Part shown: positions 24,211 through 29,950 of the stretch, in pieces
How the letters are laid out: each line of letters begins with the position of its first letter
How positions within the stretch are numbered: the stretch's first letter is position 1
IMG/VR virus record: IMGVR_UViG_3300025732_000133
Span: 1-35,148 of that record
Strand: one strand, 5' to 3'
Origin: a virus
DNA length: 35,148 nt
Program-made: the position numbers and the translations under genes
Notes under the pieces: generated by a model
What the model saw: only the letters and a program-made list of their open reading frames with translations
Told to the model about the DNA's origin: nothing
The model's database searches: none

Positions 24211-24960
24211 TTATTTTGCGGCTCGGCTAAGATATTCAGCCGTTCCAAATATTATTTTCTTATCTTCAGCTAGACTAAAGTTGTAAATACGATTTATTTC
24301 TTCAAAATAATCTCGCTCTGTGGCTTTATCTTCTAACCTATGAATATGATTGGTGATTTGTTTAACCATTCTGTCGTGGTCGTATTGCTCATCTGTAGCA
24401 AATCTTAGAAATGCTAAAGCAAAGTTTCTAGTCTTAAATCTTGGATAACTAGCAAATGCATAAAGCATCTCTAGTAATTCCATAGTTCGCTGGAAGTTAT
24501 CTACTTTAAGCGCACCTAGTTTGAATGAAGAGTTAGTAACAGGGTTATCTAGTGATAGATACCTAATCAAACAGTCGTGGTTTACTTTGTAATCACTATC
24601 TTTTGCTTTGAGATAAAGCTGATAGTTTACATTTCCAGATTCAGCAAATGCGTATGCATAGTCAACAGGTTGCCATTGTTTGGCGCTGCTGTTCAATGCT
24701 CTTACATTAGAGATATCTAGACCTTTGTGTTTGATGTAATAGACTTCTAAGCCTAACTGCGATATAGCAGCAAGTCTATGCTGTCCGTCAATTACTTCCA
24801 TTCTCTCATTTACTAATATTGGTGAAAGCTTTATAGATTCAGGGTCTTGATCTATCAATACTCTCAGTTTGTTAACGTGCGCATCACGCACCTTACGGTT
24901 ACCTTTAATTGTCTTGAAAAGAGTATAGTCTCTTGTGGACAATATTTCTGGGCTAGCCAT
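24211..24960 (-). CDS. ParB-like / DGQHR-domain protein
   Basis: The 249-residue protein starts at the ATG complementary to 24958-24960, because AAGGAG lies 6-7 nt before it; an earlier in-frame ATG at 25008 has no such site. Residues about 15-75 form a ParB-N-like domain: KTIKGNRKVRDAHVNKL, LSPILVNERMEVIDGQHRLA with the DGQHR motif (58-62), then ISQLGLEVYY. The C-terminal half is helical. Such proteins bind or cut DNA or bind nucleotides; in phages they may be regulators or partition relatives, and no ParA is present. It is one of three leftward genes. Confidence 0.75.
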   Translation of the reverse strand: MASPEILSTRDYTLFKTIKGNRKVRDAHVNKLRVLIDQDPESIKLSPILVNERMEVIDGQHRLAAISQLGLEVYYIKHKGLDISNVRALNSSAKQWQPVDYAYAFAESGNVNYQLYLKAKDSDYKVNHDCLIRYLSLDNPVTNSSFKLGALKVDNFQRTMELLEMLYAFASYPRFKTRNFALAFLRFATDEQYDHDRMVKQITNHIHRLEDKATERDYFEEINRIYNFSLAEDKKIIFGTAEYLSRAAK

Positions 24961-25005
24961 ATTAAGCTCCTTTGAGTGATAGACTGCGTATAAATTATTA
25001 AAATA

Positions 25006-25038
25006 CAACTAATAGAGATTGCCCTTTCTTATTAGTTG
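25006..25038. repeat. Inverted repeat upstream of the ParB-like gene
   Basis: CAACTAATA (25006-25014) and TATTAGTTG (25030-25038) are perfect inverted 9-mers 15 nt apart. They lie between the ParB-like start and its probable promoter (leftward TTGCGT, 17 bp, TAGACT). An operator or a hairpin in the 5' leader is equally possible. The spacer contains, leftward, GAAAGGGC, like the early ribosome motif. Confidence 0.5.
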
Positions 25039-25355: not shown

Positions 25356-25826
25356 ATGGGTAAAGTGCCTATCTACGCAACGCTGCACTACGACATTAGG
25401 CAAGCGTTGGACATATCTTGGAACGAATACGTGTTCTTGGATATGGTTTATAAACTTAGTTATGAGGGCTGGTGCTACAAATCGCTAGAAACTACAGCTA
25501 CTGATCTTGGTTTAGCCAGGCGTTCAATAGTCAACATGCGCAATCGTTTGCTAGAAAAGGGTTTATTAAAGAAAAATGGGCGTGGATACCTACGAGTTAC
25601 CACCAAATATACAGAGGTAGCGGTGCAAAAAGTGCACCGATACAAGCCAAAAGACGACCAAACGGTGCAAAAAATTCCTATTTCGGTGCAAAAAGTGCAC
25701 TCAACTGGTGCAAAAAGTGCACCTAAGAATAACAATAGAATTACAGAGAATATAGAAAATGATGAAAAAGGAACAGGATACCTACGAGCATTTGAGGCAT
25801 ATAAGAGAATCAAGGGTATTGCATAG
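25356..25826 (+). CDS. Replication initiator (winged-helix, origin-containing)
   Basis: In this 156-residue protein residues 1-85 form a helix-turn-helix/winged-helix domain (WNEYVFLDMVYKLSYEGW; SLETTATDLGLARRSIVNMR; LLEKGLLKKNGRGYLRV), as in small phage replisome organisers. The middle repeats VQKVH/VQKIP peptides because the DNA there holds iterons. The C-terminus (KSAPKNNNRITENI, then YLRAFEAYKRIKGIA) matches the common tail of such proteins. It should bind the iterons inside its own gene and recruit host replication proteins, since the phage has no polymerase or helicase. A DnaA box follows the stop. Confidence 0.72.
   Translation: MGKVPIYATLHYDIRQALDISWNEYVFLDMVYKLSYEGWCYKSLETTATDLGLARRSIVNMRNRLLEKGLLKKNGRGYLRVTTKYTEVAVQKVHRYKPKDDQTVQKIPISVQKVHSTGAKSAPKNNNRITENIENDEKGTGYLRAFEAYKRIKGIA
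25622..25723 (+). repeat. Iterons / palindromes within the initiator gene, candidate origin
   Basis: GGTGCAAAAA occurs at 25622, 25663, 25685 and 25707. Copies 1, 3 and 4 continue as GGTGCAAAAAGTGCAC, so each is also a palindrome (GGTGCA/TGCACC in copies 1 and 4). The layout parallels the lambda origin inside gene O. The following sequence is A-rich (AATAACAATAGAATTACAGA), a possible melting region. Confidence 0.75.
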
Positions 25827-25835
25827 TTATCCACA
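25827..25835 (+). other. DnaA box next to the candidate origin
   Basis: TTATCCACA, the consensus DnaA box, begins at the base after the initiator stop codon and about 100 bp from the iterons. Two more perfect boxes occur at 27970-27978 and, inverted, at 28921-28929. Confidence 0.65.
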
Positions 25836-25853: not shown

Positions 25854-25891
25854 TTGACATTATCATGCTTATGGTGTACACTGTATACAGT
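25854..25891 (+). promoter_or_regulatory. Early promoter with overlapping palindromic operator
   Basis: TTGACA (25854-25859), 17 bp, TACACT (25877-25882). The 12-bp perfect palindrome ACTGTATACAGT (25880-25891) covers the -10 to +1 region, suggesting a repressor or activator site. The transcript would include GTAAGAAAGGACA (25895-25907), the recurrent early ribosome motif, although no start codon follows it here. Confidence 0.75.
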
Positions 25892-25929
25892 CAAGTAAGA
25901 AAGGACATTACCTGACAGCATATTAAACC

Positions 25930-26120
25930 ATTGTGGTACGCCAGTAGGGCATCAAAGATTATGGTTGAGCTCGTGCGAGACTTGCTTAACTTGCGGTGTA
26001 ACCCCGCTCCAGACAACTACTGAATATAGGCAACGGGTGTCGGCTAGGCATAATAGCAACCCATATAGCTTATAGACAGAAACTGTAGAATCTAAATGAG
26101 CCTTACCGATGTACCACAAT
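25930..26120 (+). ncRNA. Candidate structured RNA closed by a 10-bp helix
   Basis: ATTGTGGTAC (25930-25939) is perfectly complementary to GTACCACAAT (26111-26120), 171 nt later. Inside, ATGGTTG (25961-25967) can pair with CAACCCAT (26057-26064, one bulge), and small hairpins such as GCTA/TAGC lie near 26043-26056. No good ORF with a ribosome site runs through it. It lies between the strong promoter at 25854 and the gene at 26135, so it is either a long regulatory leader or a separate RNA. I recognise no known RNA class. Confidence 0.5.
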
Positions 26121-26134
26121 AAGAAAGGGCAAAT

Positions 26135-26296
26135 ATGAAGTTCAAGATAATAAGTTATAAACCTAATAAGCCTGAATACACAGTAGAGGCTTATGAAGAA
26201 CAAGATGCATGGGAGTATTTCTTAGACAACTTGCTTCCGATAGAAGATGAAGTTGACGATTGGACTATTCAAGAATTAAAAAAGTTAGGTAAATAA
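26135..26296 (+). CDS. Small acidic protein, 53 residues
   Basis: The ribosome site is the early motif TAAGAAAGGGCAAA (26120-26133), immediately before ATG 26135. The product MKFKIISYKPNKPEYTVEAY begins with two strands, continues with acidic EEQDAWEYFLDNLLPIEDEV and ends in a helix (TIQELKKLGK). It is unrecognised. The TAATG overlap with the next gene shows it is the first member of a small early operon. Confidence 0.7.
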   Translation: MKFKIISYKPNKPEYTVEAYEEQDAWEYFLDNLLPIEDEVDDWTIQELKKLGK

Positions 26297-26634
26297 TGAC
26301 ACTTACTACAAACTCACTACCTGCACAGATAGAACGCAAGCTACTTGCTACTATCGAGCTACAGAAACAACTAGAACAAGCTGAGGCTGATCTAAAAGCC
26401 GAGCTACTAGAAGCTATGAAAGAGCACAATGTCATCTCAATCAAGAATGATAACTACTCAATTAGCCTAGTTAAGCGTGCCAGCTATAAGGGTGACATCA
26501 ACAGCGTGCCTACTACTATGCTTAAAACTGCACTAGACACTACTAAGATAGGTCAGTATGAAAAACTTTACGGCGAGCTTCCTATGGGAGTTGAGAAGTC
26601 TGAGACTGAGTACATCTCTTGGAGAGCAAAGTAA
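26296..26634 (+). CDS. Early phage protein with coiled-coil start, 112 residues
   Basis: Residues 8-45 form a coiled coil (IERKLLATIELQKQLEQAEA then KAELLEAMKEHNV). A small beta segment SIKNDNYSISLVKRASYKGD follows, then a helix and a C-terminal ISWRAK. Many phages carry a protein of this layout near recombination genes, generally of unknown function. It is coupled to both neighbours by TAATG overlaps. A role near DNA is suggested only by context. Confidence 0.65.
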   Translation: MTLTTNSLPAQIERKLLATIELQKQLEQAEADLKAELLEAMKEHNVISIKNDNYSISLVKRASYKGDINSVPTTMLKTALDTTKIGQYEKLYGELPMGVEKSETEYISWRAK

Positions 26635-27016: not shown

Positions 27017-27499
27017 ATGGAAATAGTAAAGCTCGGAACACTGAAAGACATTCAGGTCTTTTCAACTGAGGTTAAGAAGTTCATACACGAGAATAAGTTA
27101 TGGACTAGCGTGCAGGGCAAGCCATACGTAAACGTAGAGGGCTGGCAGTTTATGGGCGGCATGCTCGGAATCACAGCCAACGTCAAAGAACTAGAGAACC
27201 AGAGCACTGATAAAGAGGTAAAGTACCGAGCAGTCGTAGAACTGTATCGTGGCGATCAGTTAGTTAGTTCAGGTGTGGCTATTTGCTCCAACAAAGAAAA
27301 GGGCAAGCAATACTTTGATGAGTATGCCATAGCTTCTATGTGTCAAACTAGAGCCATTGGAAAAGCCTACAGAATCTATCTTGGGTGGATAATGAAGATG
27401 GCTGGCTTTGAATCAACACCATTAGAAGAAATGCAAGGAGGGGTAAATGTCACAGCAGAGGATACGAAGACGGAGATTGTCGACGCCTACAATTCATAA
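27017..27499 (+). CDS. Putative single-strand annealing recombinase
   Basis: This 160-residue protein has a strong AAGGAGGG site. Features: KPYVNVEGWQFMGGMLGITA (about 34-53), a beta sheet with VELYRGDQLVSSGVAIC, and DEYAIASMCQTRAIGKAYR (about 98-116) with LGWIMKMAGFESTPLEEM. The QTRAIGKA-R helix and the order resemble phage RecT/ERF/Sak-type or Rad52-like annealing proteins. The next gene is a YqaJ exonuclease, the usual partner. Annealing activity is therefore inferred from weak motif similarity plus synteny. The last 53 bases overlap the exonuclease gene. Confidence 0.6.
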   Translation: MEIVKLGTLKDIQVFSTEVKKFIHENKLWTSVQGKPYVNVEGWQFMGGMLGITANVKELENQSTDKEVKYRAVVELYRGDQLVSSGVAICSNKEKGKQYFDEYAIASMCQTRAIGKAYRIYLGWIMKMAGFESTPLEEMQGGVNVTAEDTKTEIVDAYNS

Positions 27500-28010
27500 T
27501 TGCGCTCAGAATTCGCCAGAATGGTTCGAACTACGCAAAGGGCGTGTTACTGCGTCCAACGCATGGAAGCTGCTTGAAAAGGGCTATAAAGAGGCTGTAG
27601 AGCAAAAGATAATCCCTACGACAGCAGCAATGCAGCGTGGCAAGGACTTAGAGCCTGAAGCTCTAGAGATTTACTCCAGAACGCACGATGATGTAGACAT
27701 ACTGACTGTCGGGTTTGTGACTAATCCTAAATACCCAAATGCTGGAGCGAGTCCAGACGGCGTGGTTGGAGATAAGCTAATCGAAGTCAAATGCTTTGGC
27801 GAAAAGAAACACATTGATGTCAGCAAAGGGAACATACCTTTCGAAGTAATGGCGCAGGTGCAAATGCAGATGATGATTTGTGAGCTAGAGTCCTGCGACT
27901 TAGTCCTATACAACCCAGACTTAGAGCCTAAGCTGGCTTTTAAGGTTATAAACATCCCAGCAGATGAAGTTATCCACAGAAATATACGCAAGCATCTTGA
28001 CTTAACATAA
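27447..28010 (+). CDS. YqaJ / lambda-exonuclease-type recombination nuclease
   Basis: The 187-residue protein has GGAGGGG before ATG 27447, inside the end of the annealing gene. The fold's signature order is clear: NSPEWFELRKGRVTASNAWK (22-41), MQRGKDLEPEALEIY (62-76), AGASPDGVVGD (99-109, Asp104), LIEVKCFGEKKH (111-122, Glu113 and Lys115), and MAQVQMQMMICE (135-146). These are the metal and catalytic residues of PD-(D/E)XK exonucleases. It would resect double-strand ends so that the upstream protein can anneal them. A promoter lies in its last codons. Confidence 0.88.
   Translation: MSQQRIRRRRLSTPTIHNCAQNSPEWFELRKGRVTASNAWKLLEKGYKEAVEQKIIPTTAAMQRGKDLEPEALEIYSRTHDDVDILTVGFVTNPKYPNAGASPDGVVGDKLIEVKCFGEKKHIDVSKGNIPFEVMAQVQMQMMICELESCDLVLYNPDLEPKLAFKVINIPADEVIHRNIRKHLDLT
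27970..27978 (+). other. DnaA box inside the exonuclease gene
   Basis: Perfect TTATCCACA, about 20 bases upstream of the promoter at 27997. It may be chance or part of DnaA-linked control. Confidence 0.4.
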
Positions 28011-28025: not shown

Positions 28026-28055
28026 GTGGGTACCATAAAAGAAAGGACAAAAATT

Positions 28056-28298
28056 ATGGACATACTAAACCCCAAAGAAATTGGGACAGCAACGAGAACT
28101 ATCAAAAGCACAAGAAGCCACCGCTTCTCTAACTGGGCAGACGACAATCTATTACCTTGGATGTCGCTGGTAATCCTAGGCTTTCTAGCAGCACAAGGAA
28201 TCATATCCTTTACGCCAATGCTAGTAGATGACTTTAGGACAGGTTTCGCTTTCGTAGTCGTGTTCTTCCTAATCATCAAGATTAGACGCATCCAATAG
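28056..28298 (+). CDS. Two-span membrane protein, 80 residues
   Basis: ATG 28056 follows AAGAAAGGACAAA by 4 bases; an upstream in-frame start at 28026 would fall in the promoter. A basic cytoplasmic start (MDILNPKEIGTATRTIKSTR) is followed by LPWMSLVILGFLAAQGIISF (about 42-61), a short loop and GFAFVVVFFLIIKI (about 66-79), then IRRIQ. It has its own promoter and terminator, so it is a single-gene unit. Possible roles are superinfection exclusion or early membrane takeover. No family is recognised. Confidence 0.7.
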   Translation: MDILNPKEIGTATRTIKSTRSHRFSNWADDNLLPWMSLVILGFLAAQGIISFTPMLVDDFRTGFAFVVVFFLIIKIRRIQ

Positions 28299-28369: not shown

Positions 28370-28549
28370 CTACTTCTTCTTCTTAGCTTTGCCAGTAACG
28401 CTGAGAGCTATTGCTATTGCTTGCTTGCGTGACTTAGCTAGTGGAGCTTTCTTTGGACCCTTAGGGTTGATACCTGAGTGAAGTGTACCAGCCTTAAACT
28501 CTCTCATGATCTTAGCGAACTTACCCTTAGATGCTGCTTTCTTCTTCAT
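28370..28549 (-). CDS. Small basic protein (DUF6496-like), 59 residues
   Basis: The ATG is complementary to 28547-28549 with AAAGGAAAG upstream; the stop is at 28370-28372. MKKKAASKGKFAKIMREFKA is followed by GTLHSGINPKGPKKAPLAKS, then RKQAIAIALSVTGKAKKKK. The order FAKIMREFKAGTLHSG ... SRKQAIAIALS matches a widespread family of tiny phage and bacterial basic proteins (DUF6496-type) of unknown function. Its charge suggests nucleic-acid binding. Its start overlaps the stop of the next leftward gene upstream (TAATG). Confidence 0.78.
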   Translation of the reverse strand: MKKKAASKGKFAKIMREFKAGTLHSGINPKGPKKAPLAKSRKQAIAIALSVTGKAKKKK

Positions 28550-28662
28550 TATTTCTTTCCTTTCTTGCGGGCAGCCATTTTCTTTGCTGCCATCTTCTTA
28601 CCGTATTCCTTAATCATCATCTTCTTAGATTCTTTCTTCTCGTGCATTTTACCAGCTGACAT
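28549..28662 (-). CDS. Tiny lysine-rich protein, 37 residues
   Basis: The ATG is complementary to 28660-28662 with AAAGGAG 5-6 nt upstream; the stop overlaps the next start. The product MSAGKMHEKKESKKMMIKEY continues GKKMAAKKMAARKKGKK, nearly half lysine/arginine and a single probable helix. It has the look of a nucleic-acid-binding or anti-host micro-protein. The strong ribosome site, the coupled downstream gene and the structured leader support a real gene. Confidence 0.7.
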   Translation of the reverse strand: MSAGKMHEKKESKKMMIKEYGKKMAAKKMAARKKGKK

Positions 28663-28684
28663 AGTGCTCCTTTAGTTAATTGGT

Positions 28685-28847: not shown

Positions 28848-28901
28848 TAAAAAACAGCCCCGGAAGAGTGTAAGAAAGGACAAACTTTTTGGGGCTGCTA
28901 T
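28848..28901 (-). ncRNA. Candidate anti-Shine-Dalgarno small RNA
   Basis: Leftward promoter, then a start near 28901 and a terminator made of AGCAGCCCC (28899-28891) and GGGGCTGTT (28861-28853) with six T (28854-28849). The whole RNA is about 54 nt. Its 29-nt loop contains GTTTGTCCTTTCTTAC (28885-28870), the exact complement of the early ribosome motif GTAAGAAAGGACAAAC. It can pair 14 nt with the site of the gene at 29003, 13 nt with that at 28056, 13 nt at 25895-25907, and 14 nt with one G-U at 26120-26133. Function as a translational repressor is inference. Confidence 0.6.
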
Positions 28902-28907
28902 GCCGAG

Positions 28908-28936
28908 ATTATACCAAACCTGTGGATAAATCACAA
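28908..28936 (-). promoter_or_regulatory. Promoter of the anti-Shine-Dalgarno RNA
   Basis: Minus-strand TTGTGA (plus 28931-28936), 17 bp, TATAAT (plus 28908-28913) with an upstream TGG extended -10. The spacer contains a perfect DnaA box. It is divergent from, and nearly touches, the promoter of the gene at 29003. Confidence 0.72.
28921..28929 (-). other. DnaA box within promoter spacer
   Basis: TTATCCACA on the minus strand, between the -35 and -10 of the small-RNA promoter, where bound DnaA would be expected to block RNA polymerase. Confidence 0.5.
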
Positions 28937-28945
28937 CAAATACCC

Positions 28946-28973
28946 TTGATTGTATTTGCTTATGTAGTACAAT
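28946..28973 (+). promoter_or_regulatory. Early promoter
   Basis: TTGATT (28946-28951), 16 bp, TACAAT (28968-28973). The spacer contains TGCTTATG and the -10 is followed by TATACA, both also present around the promoter at 25854. The ribosome motif AAGAAAGGACAAAC follows at 28988-29001. Confidence 0.75.
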
Positions 28974-29002
28974 ATATACATCATCAAAAGAAAGGACAAA
29001 CG

Positions 29003-29212
29003 ATGACAATAGAAGTTAAGTACATAGACTCAAACAATGGGTCAATCACTGTGCAAACAGGGTTTTGGGACGAGAATCGCTTTGAGATGGAGTCCTGCAA
29101 CCACGCAGGTAAGACAGTAGAGGAATCATCTACATTCGATGGCTACTCAACTGGGTTTTATTATCAGTGCGATAAGTGCGAGGAAATAGAAATAATAGAG
29201 GAGAACGAATAA
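29003..29212 (+). CDS. Small protein with zinc-ribbon-like end, 69 residues
   Basis: ATG 29003 is 1 base after AAGAAAGGACAAAC, the best match to the early ribosome motif. The protein is a small beta sheet (MTIEVKYIDSNNGSITVQTG) with Cys/His positions in ESCNHAGKTVEE and YQCDKCEEIEI (CxxC), suggesting a single metal site, and a strongly acidic C-terminus. It is unrecognised. It heads an early operon that runs to WhiB and beyond, and its promoter is back-to-back with the candidate small RNA that could repress it. Confidence 0.72.
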   Translation: MTIEVKYIDSNNGSITVQTGFWDENRFEMESCNHAGKTVEESSTFDGYSTGFYYQCDKCEEIEIIEENE

Positions 29213-29430: not shown

Positions 29431-29678
29431 TGAACATAGATAAAAGATTAGACAGTTTAGTCGATTGGATACTTCACGAACCTGCATATACAAAAGCTGA
29501 AATGAAAGATAAAATCAAACAACTATTCCAAGAGTTAATAGATGAAGTGATAGGCGCAGAACTTGTAAAAATAGTTAGAACAGACAATAAAAATTTAGCA
29601 GAAACTTATATGTCTGGATTTAATGATTGCATTGAGAAACAACGCCAAAAAGCTAAAGAACTATTGGAGAATATGTAA
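29430..29678 (+). CDS. Unknown helical protein, 82 residues
   Basis: The gene overlaps both neighbours at shared TAATG junctions. The sequence (IDKRLDSLVDWILHEPAYTK; MKDKIKQLFQELIDEVIGAE; then YMSGFNDCIEKQRQKAKELL) is all helix and charged. The NLAETYMSGFNDCIEKQ segment is common in short phage early proteins without known function. There is no motif that would assign a role. Confidence 0.68.
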   Translation: MNIDKRLDSLVDWILHEPAYTKAEMKDKIKQLFQELIDEVIGAELVKIVRTDNKNLAETYMSGFNDCIEKQRQKAKELLENM

Positions 29679-29950
29679 TGGATAAGTTTGAATCACAAGC
29701 ATACACAGACAGGTCTAACCTACCACTAGACTGGGCTAAGGAAGCCAACTGTCGTGGCCTAGAACCAAAGATGTTCCACACAGAGCGTGGCGAGAGCACA
29801 AGAGAAGCTATGGCAGTATGTGTCGGGTGTGTAGTAGTAAAGGAATGCTTGCACTATGCACTATCTAATGGCATCAAATACGGAATCTGGGGAGGCAAGT
29901 CTGAGAGGCAACGCCGAATCCTAAGAAGAGAATTAAGCACAAACGACTAA
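29678..29950 (+). CDS. WhiB-family [4Fe-4S] transcription factor
   Basis: The 90-residue protein has the four cluster cysteines, Cys25, Cys48, Cys51 and Cys57 (CVGCVVVKECL gives CxxCx5C), and the turn GIWGG at 69-73, followed by the basic SERQRRILRRE DNA-contact tail. WhiB proteins bind RNA polymerase sigma region 4 and occur in Actinobacteria and their phages, so this is the best host marker in the window. Here it probably redirects host sigma factor or switches between early and late promoters, which is of interest because late promoters lack a -35. It sits within an early operon. Confidence 0.9.
   Translation: MDKFESQAYTDRSNLPLDWAKEANCRGLEPKMFHTERGESTREAMAVCVGCVVVKECLHYALSNGIKYGIWGGKSERQRRILRRELSTND

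Follow-up and report, generated by a model that had tools for sequence, protein, structure and literature searches.

Pyrimidine-rich loops that pair with the Shine-Dalgarno regions of several mRNAs are characteristic of bacterial small RNAs such as the streptococcal csRNAs and the C-rich sRNAs of the RsaE type. Among the phage antisense RNAs, sar and OOP are antisense to one overlapping gene, OOP being very short and ended by a terminator, and the c4 RNA is cut out of the very transcript that it regulates. In phages P1 and P7, c4 prevents the translation of a phage mRNA through loops that pair around its ribosome-binding site; the sar RNA of P22 pairs at or near the translation start of a phage mRNA; and both sar and the lambda OOP RNA are short antisense RNAs directed at mRNAs of the phage (PMC12197685). 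The phage antisense RNAs in the sources consulted for comparison mostly have one phage target or act on host RNAs. A different kind of precedent is provided by the Start-Associated Sequences (SAS) of Cluster K mycobacteriophages, a phage-specific extended Shine-Dalgarno motif that stands before many early genes in 11-19 copies, carries conserved letters that 16S rRNA cannot pair with and, in some genomes, has one reverse copy (PMC3203893). The role of SAS was still given as "not known" in 2024 (PMC11373665).

The window, meaning the whole stretch of DNA analysed here, is an IMG/VR virus contig of 35,148 nucleotides with 41-46% G+C and mostly rightward genes, and none of the annotated phages matches its DNA. 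A short leftward locus within it probably encodes a base-pairing, anti-Shine-Dalgarno small RNA by which the phage lowers early translation (Table 1). The predicted RNA has two properties of a trans-acting anti-Shine-Dalgarno sRNA, namely its own (predicted) promoter with an intrinsic terminator and a loop whose complementarity to several Shine-Dalgarno regions exceeds chance. Like c4, it is predicted to pair at a phage ribosome-binding site, with computed complementarity and covariation at one such site (site B); unlike c4, it has several targets and is read from the opposite strand with its own promoter and terminator, and the c4 family has no Rfam match in the window, L092, or L109. It resembles sar and OOP in being a short phage antisense RNA directed at phage mRNAs, and OOP also in its terminator end, but its targets are several, lie 0.1-3.9 kb away, and are never opposite the RNA itself, the nearest being about 100 nt off. 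With the csRNAs and RsaE it shares a pyrimidine-rich loop set against several Shine-Dalgarno regions, although those RNAs are bacterial rather than phage-borne and the small RNA of the window has no Rfam sequence match. As in Cluster K, the phage has its own extended Shine-Dalgarno motif and one reverse copy of it; the motif is AGAAAGGACA as against the 13-bp GGGATAGGAGCCC of Cluster K. The first-pass annotation had called such a regulator unknown from phages. Given that c4, sar, and OOP are established phage antisense regulators, and that c4 and sar pair near translation starts (PMC12197685), the kind is known; what stands of the claim is the version with one loop and several ribosome sites, a variant in which the loop coevolves with them and which was not found in the literature searched (most subscription literature being outside its scope). 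If true, a small phage could silence its early genes jointly at the level of translation, with no protein needed.

Table 1. Features of the locus, its complementary sites, and neighbouring genes (window positions unless another record is named)
Feature	Position	Strand	Remarks
Replication-initiation-like gene	25356-25826	plus	
Promoter A of the leader transcript, TTGACA-17-TACACT	25854-25882	plus	promoter scan; orthologues in L006, L109
Site A: hairpin near transcript start, loop region AAGAAAGGACA complementary to small-RNA loop	25890-25916	plus	
Structured leader RNA: long rod, two or more hairpins	25930-26120	plus	shared pairs in three lineages
Site B: Shine-Dalgarno region of first gene after leader	26119-26133	plus	15-16 pairs with own loop in every lineage
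53-aa gene after site B	26135-26296	plus	missing from L006/L109, in which site B is followed directly by the Gp157-like gene
Gp157-like gene, start of recombination operon	26296-26634	plus	
Single-strand-annealing and YqaJ exonuclease genes	27017-28010	plus	same operon as Gp157-like gene
Site C: ribosome site AAAGAAAGGACAAAA of gene at 28056	28038-28052	plus	13, 11, 11 pairs in three lineages
Gene of site C, no assigned function	starts 28056	plus	
Predicted small RNA, about 53-54 nt: hairpin terminator, 29-nt loop, U-tract	28849-28901	minus	5' end (28901) predicted from promoter; orthologues in L005/L006, L108/L109
T6 of terminator	28854-28849	minus	
3' stem arm GGGGCTG	28861-28855	minus	
Loop	28890-28862	minus	
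Antisense core GTTTGTCCTTTCTTAC in loop	28870-28885	minus	TGTCCTTTCT invariant in three lineages, flanks variable
5' stem arm CAGCCCC	28897-28891	minus	
Extended -10 TATAAT (TG before -10), small-RNA promoter	28908-28913	minus	promoter scan
Perfect DnaA box TTATCCACA in small-RNA promoter spacer	28921-28929	minus	kept in three lineages
-35 hexamer TTGTGA, small-RNA promoter	28931-28936	minus	read in the sequence; promoter scan
Site D: ribosome site AAGAAAGGACAAAC of gene at 29003, divergent from small RNA	28988-29001	plus	
69-aa gene after site D, no assigned function	29003-29212	plus	homologues at same place in L006, L109
Site E (weaker), AGAAAGGGCAATC, before ParB-like gene	25017-25032	minus	13 pairs, one G-U
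Reverse-SAS hairpin	L203 (Anaya record position 59882); L204, L205 (Adephagia, CrimD, gap before gp93/gp94)		

The element itself is as it had been described from the letters: the two promoter hexamers, with a 17-nt spacer, and the terminator hairpin with its 29-nt loop are present on the minus strand, and a promoter scan agrees. The stem has 7 bp and is G+C-rich, and the hairpin has a minimum free energy of -18.2 (z = -4.5 against shuffles). In the predicted fold, CCUUUCU lies in an apical loop, an arrangement that would fit a loop-loop contact. The loop core contains UCCUUUCU, a copy of the usual 3' tail of 16S rRNA. The DnaA box in the promoter spacer suggests that host DnaA or replication may influence the switch.

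Three lineages were compared, the remaining contigs being near-duplicates. The phage of the window also occurs as L003/L069 (one contig) and L004 (another); the second lineage, L005/L006, has a terminase 91% identical, and the third, L108/L109, an annealing protein 86% identical. Both further lineages have the same divergent locus, with an identical -10 hexamer, -35 counterparts TTGTAA (L006) and TTGATT (L109), a DnaA box in the spacer, a stem of CAGCCCC or GCAGCCCC, a minus-side U-tract, and the loop core TGTCCTTTCT between differing flanks. L110, a fourth relative (75%), has neither the divergent genes nor the hairpin, and its Gp157-like gene is preceded by a plain ribosome site, GGAAAGGATTATTATG. 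A CA extension after AGAAAGGA is found at 8 of 10 ribosome sites in the three phages versus 2 of 19 in relatives without the small RNA, and none of the other hairpin loops scanned in 66 terminase relatives has several such matches. Several further candidates were rejected. Matches to the promoter pattern (L079-L106) have, beyond the phage family (L078, L092, L004, L069), the promoter words alone in common; the hairpins of L103, L104, and L037 are unrelated; and matches to a relaxed hairpin pattern (L115, L117, L118, L120-L123) come without promoter and targets.

Within the window, the loop 16-mer has six matches at up to three mismatches, itself included, versus 0.43 expected, and none of 100 shuffles reaches six. 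Chance matching was rejected on these counts and on the advantage of the real loop over shuffled flanks. The complement is exact over 13 nt at site A (25895-25907), 13 nt at site C (28039-28051), and 14 nt at site D, and at site B there are 15 pairs including two G-U, so that the lengths first reported for these four sites were correct to within one base. Two readings of the sites needed revision. Positions 25895-25907 had been taken for a ribosome site; no start codon is conserved after them in the three lineages, and they sit in the loop of a leader hairpin. The divergent neighbour had been ranked the best target, yet site D pairs over 14, 12, and 10 positions in the window, L006, and L109, versus 13-16 at A and B. 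Sites A and D are 80% alike over 42 nt, and part of this resemblance is owed to shared promoter-leader ancestry. Site E pairs over 14 positions with the L006 loop; the ParB-like gene downstream of it occupies 24211-25008 on the minus strand.

Because the core copies the usual 16S rRNA tail, sites of Shine-Dalgarno type would match it anyway, and only the flanks are informative. With the core octamer held fixed and the flanks shuffled, the observed total pairing was equalled with P = 5e-5, 0.0016, and 0.0036 in the three lineages, values that are not independent of how the sites were found. When every loop is assigned to its own phage, the total for sites A-D comes to 160 contiguous pairs and -250.5 kcal/mol, versus 127-143 pairs and -210 to -227 kcal/mol for the five mismatched assignments. 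At sites A and B the own loop forms 13 and 15 pairs in the window, 14 and 16 in L006, and 15 and 16 in L109, where pairing at B extends to the AUG; at C and D the figures are 13 and 14, 11 and 12, and 11 and 10. A and B are thus the targets maintained by evolution. Sites C and D are weaker and track the loop poorly, the L006 site C fitting the window loop better than its own. The letters that follow AGAAAGGAC make the correspondence specific: the window loop shares AAAC with its site D, and with their own site B the L006 loop shares AATCCAA and the L109 loop ACTAT. When pairing is ranked over the whole contig and both strands, leaving out the antisense of the small RNA itself, own targets come third, fourth, and sixth in the window, first (tied) and about seventh in L006, and first and third in L109; gapped duplex energies alone do not strongly single them out. 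Covariation in related phages had been named in advance as a check, and in the two lineages where the loop has changed the best targets have changed too, which argues for a stand-alone small RNA whose loop may pair with several early sites.

A simpler reading would make the hairpin merely a terminator or attenuator of leftward transcription, its match to the ribosome sites being a by-product of a pyrimidine-rich loop. It is indeed a good intrinsic terminator, with small lysine-rich genes leftward of it in the window and L006, but its promoter finishes only about 10 nt before the stem, the own-loop pairing exceeds that of shuffled flanks and swapped loops, and the loop core is kept while its flanks change. 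Further, L109 has no leftward gene of at least 45 aa downstream of the hairpin before the gene of site C, and the hairpin is thus no attenuator there. On balance this reading is unlikely.

The transcript from promoter A begins with a leader which, the site A hairpin included, spans 25885-26137 in the window, 4970-5160 in L006, and 6160-6342 in L109. Site A forms a hairpin loop in all three lineages with AAAGGAC exposed, on stems of differing sequence (GUCAAGUAA/UUACCUGAC in the window, GUCAAGU/ACUUGGC in L006, AUUGUUAG/CUGACAAU in L109). The rod that follows folds alike from each single sequence (z = -4.2, -3.9, and -5.0). Thirty-nine pairs are common to the three lineages, 12 of them with compensatory double changes; 99.4% of the alignment cells pair, and sliding the partners leaves 0-1 compensatory pairs. 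A conserved loop surrounds GUGCGAGACUU, the window copy carries a 66-nt insertion, and the end of the rod directly adjoins ribosome site B. The leader has no Rfam match even at E = 10, and among the loci searched its covariance model matches in these phages only; it is a candidate new RNA family. With site A in the starting hairpin and the rod ending at B, the leader would offer the small RNA a loop at its start and a Shine-Dalgarno target at its end. Matches to the leader motif in L197, L199-L201, and L112-L114 are due to chance and were not recovered by the covariance model, and a reading of the leader as a CGT..G zinc-finger gene fails on in-frame stops in L006 and L109 (by eye).

The likeliest course of events can be sketched as follows. 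An RNA of about 54 nt would start leftward at a promoter of its own and stop at its own terminator hairpin; its loop, the copy of the 16S rRNA 3' end extended by phage-specific letters, would pair over 10-16 bases with AGAAAGGACA plus extension, a motif placed just downstream of the rightward early promoters, in the leader hairpin loop (A) and in Shine-Dalgarno sequences (B, C, and D). Masking of the latter would lower translation of the early and recombination genes together, and a loop-loop contact at site A may serve as a first or reinforcing step. Transcription of the small RNA, pairing in cells, repression as the effect, and timing are what we infer; computation provides the promoter and the hairpin, the complementarity, the conservation across three lineages, the way loop and targets change jointly, and the covarying leader. 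The label "autogenous" that had been attached to this circuit was dropped, since nothing shows control of the small RNA by its target genes.

The pairing might be real and its effect the opposite, with hairpin A titrating the small RNA away as a sponge, or the early mRNAs being stabilized or activated by it. Site A is consistent with this in that it lacks a start codon, is displayed in a loop, the arrangement of loop-loop contacts, and ranks with the best-kept sites; site B, kept just as well, covers a Shine-Dalgarno sequence (to the AUG in L109), a position at which pairing normally blocks translation, and such an effect is improbable. The motif AGAAAGGACA might instead be a DNA operator for a phage protein, with one more, reversed, copy in the hairpin. 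Several copies do stand at similar distances after related early promoters, but they coincide either with Shine-Dalgarno positions or with the loop of an RNA hairpin that preserves its stem through compensatory changes, a conserved terminator stem encloses the reverse copy, and the extension letters match one particular target per phage, which makes an operator very improbable. It is also very unlikely that the main targets of the small RNA are host mRNAs with AGAAAGGA ribosome sites, many of which its rRNA-like core would fit, given that in each lineage the variable extensions have their matches at phage sites.

Repression by a coevolving anti-Shine-Dalgarno RNA also offers a concrete hypothesis for SAS, a puzzle since 2011, and one testable in laboratory mycobacteriophages with existing RNA-seq (GSE271014). 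A stable hairpin in a non-coding gap of Anaya, Adephagia, and CrimD carries the single reverse SAS copy in its apical loop of 10 nt. The region of this copy occurs in 172 records, the loop not being kept exactly in all: Adephagia, Anaya, CrimD, Validus, Peanam, Yunkel11, and LilPharaoh have its sequence intact or almost so, DarthP, Unicorn, and Cain have an imperfect copy, and none was found in Keshu, MacnCheese, Marshawn, SirPhilip, Oscar, and Yuna. In Validus, Peanam, and LilPharaoh, a short-window fold did not put the anti-SAS in an open loop. Since the loop is imperfect in DarthP and Unicorn although their SAS is unchanged, covariation is not evident in Cluster K, and its hairpin is a lead, not cluster-wide, rather than evidence for the small RNA of the window. 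It is nonetheless conceivable, as a tentative generalization, that some actinobacterial phages run a translational regulon in which a Shine-Dalgarno extension marks the early genes and one coevolving hairpin RNA silences them all and contacts the leader loop to loop, Cluster K SAS being a second, independent instance.

Several features of the neighbourhood deserve mention. Two small lysine-rich leftward proteins are encoded at 28370-28675 (minus strand), between the gene of site C and the small RNA; both are absent in L109, and one weakly matches phrog_2423. A WhiB-type regulator gene at 29678-29950 (plus strand) indicates an actinobacterial host despite the 41-46% G+C, and the host is probably actinobacterial. 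The annealing protein, ERF-like by our reading, has relatives of 51-57% identity in many Hymenobacter, Pontibacter, and Adhaeribacter genomes (L133-L196); as a host clue the Hymenobacter and Pontibacter relatives were rejected, as they do not identify the host. Perfect DnaA boxes (TTATCCACA) occur at 25827 (+), 27970 (+, inside the coding end of YqaJ), and 28929 (-), near early promoters A, C, and D/small RNA, and boxes lie near early promoters in L006 and L109 too. Finally, early promoters A and D (28946-28973) have a common spacer word, TGCTTATG, in three lineages, the window copy in D having a T in front, and promoter C has a related CATAAGC/ATGC word; the word is possibly a common operator of these promoters.
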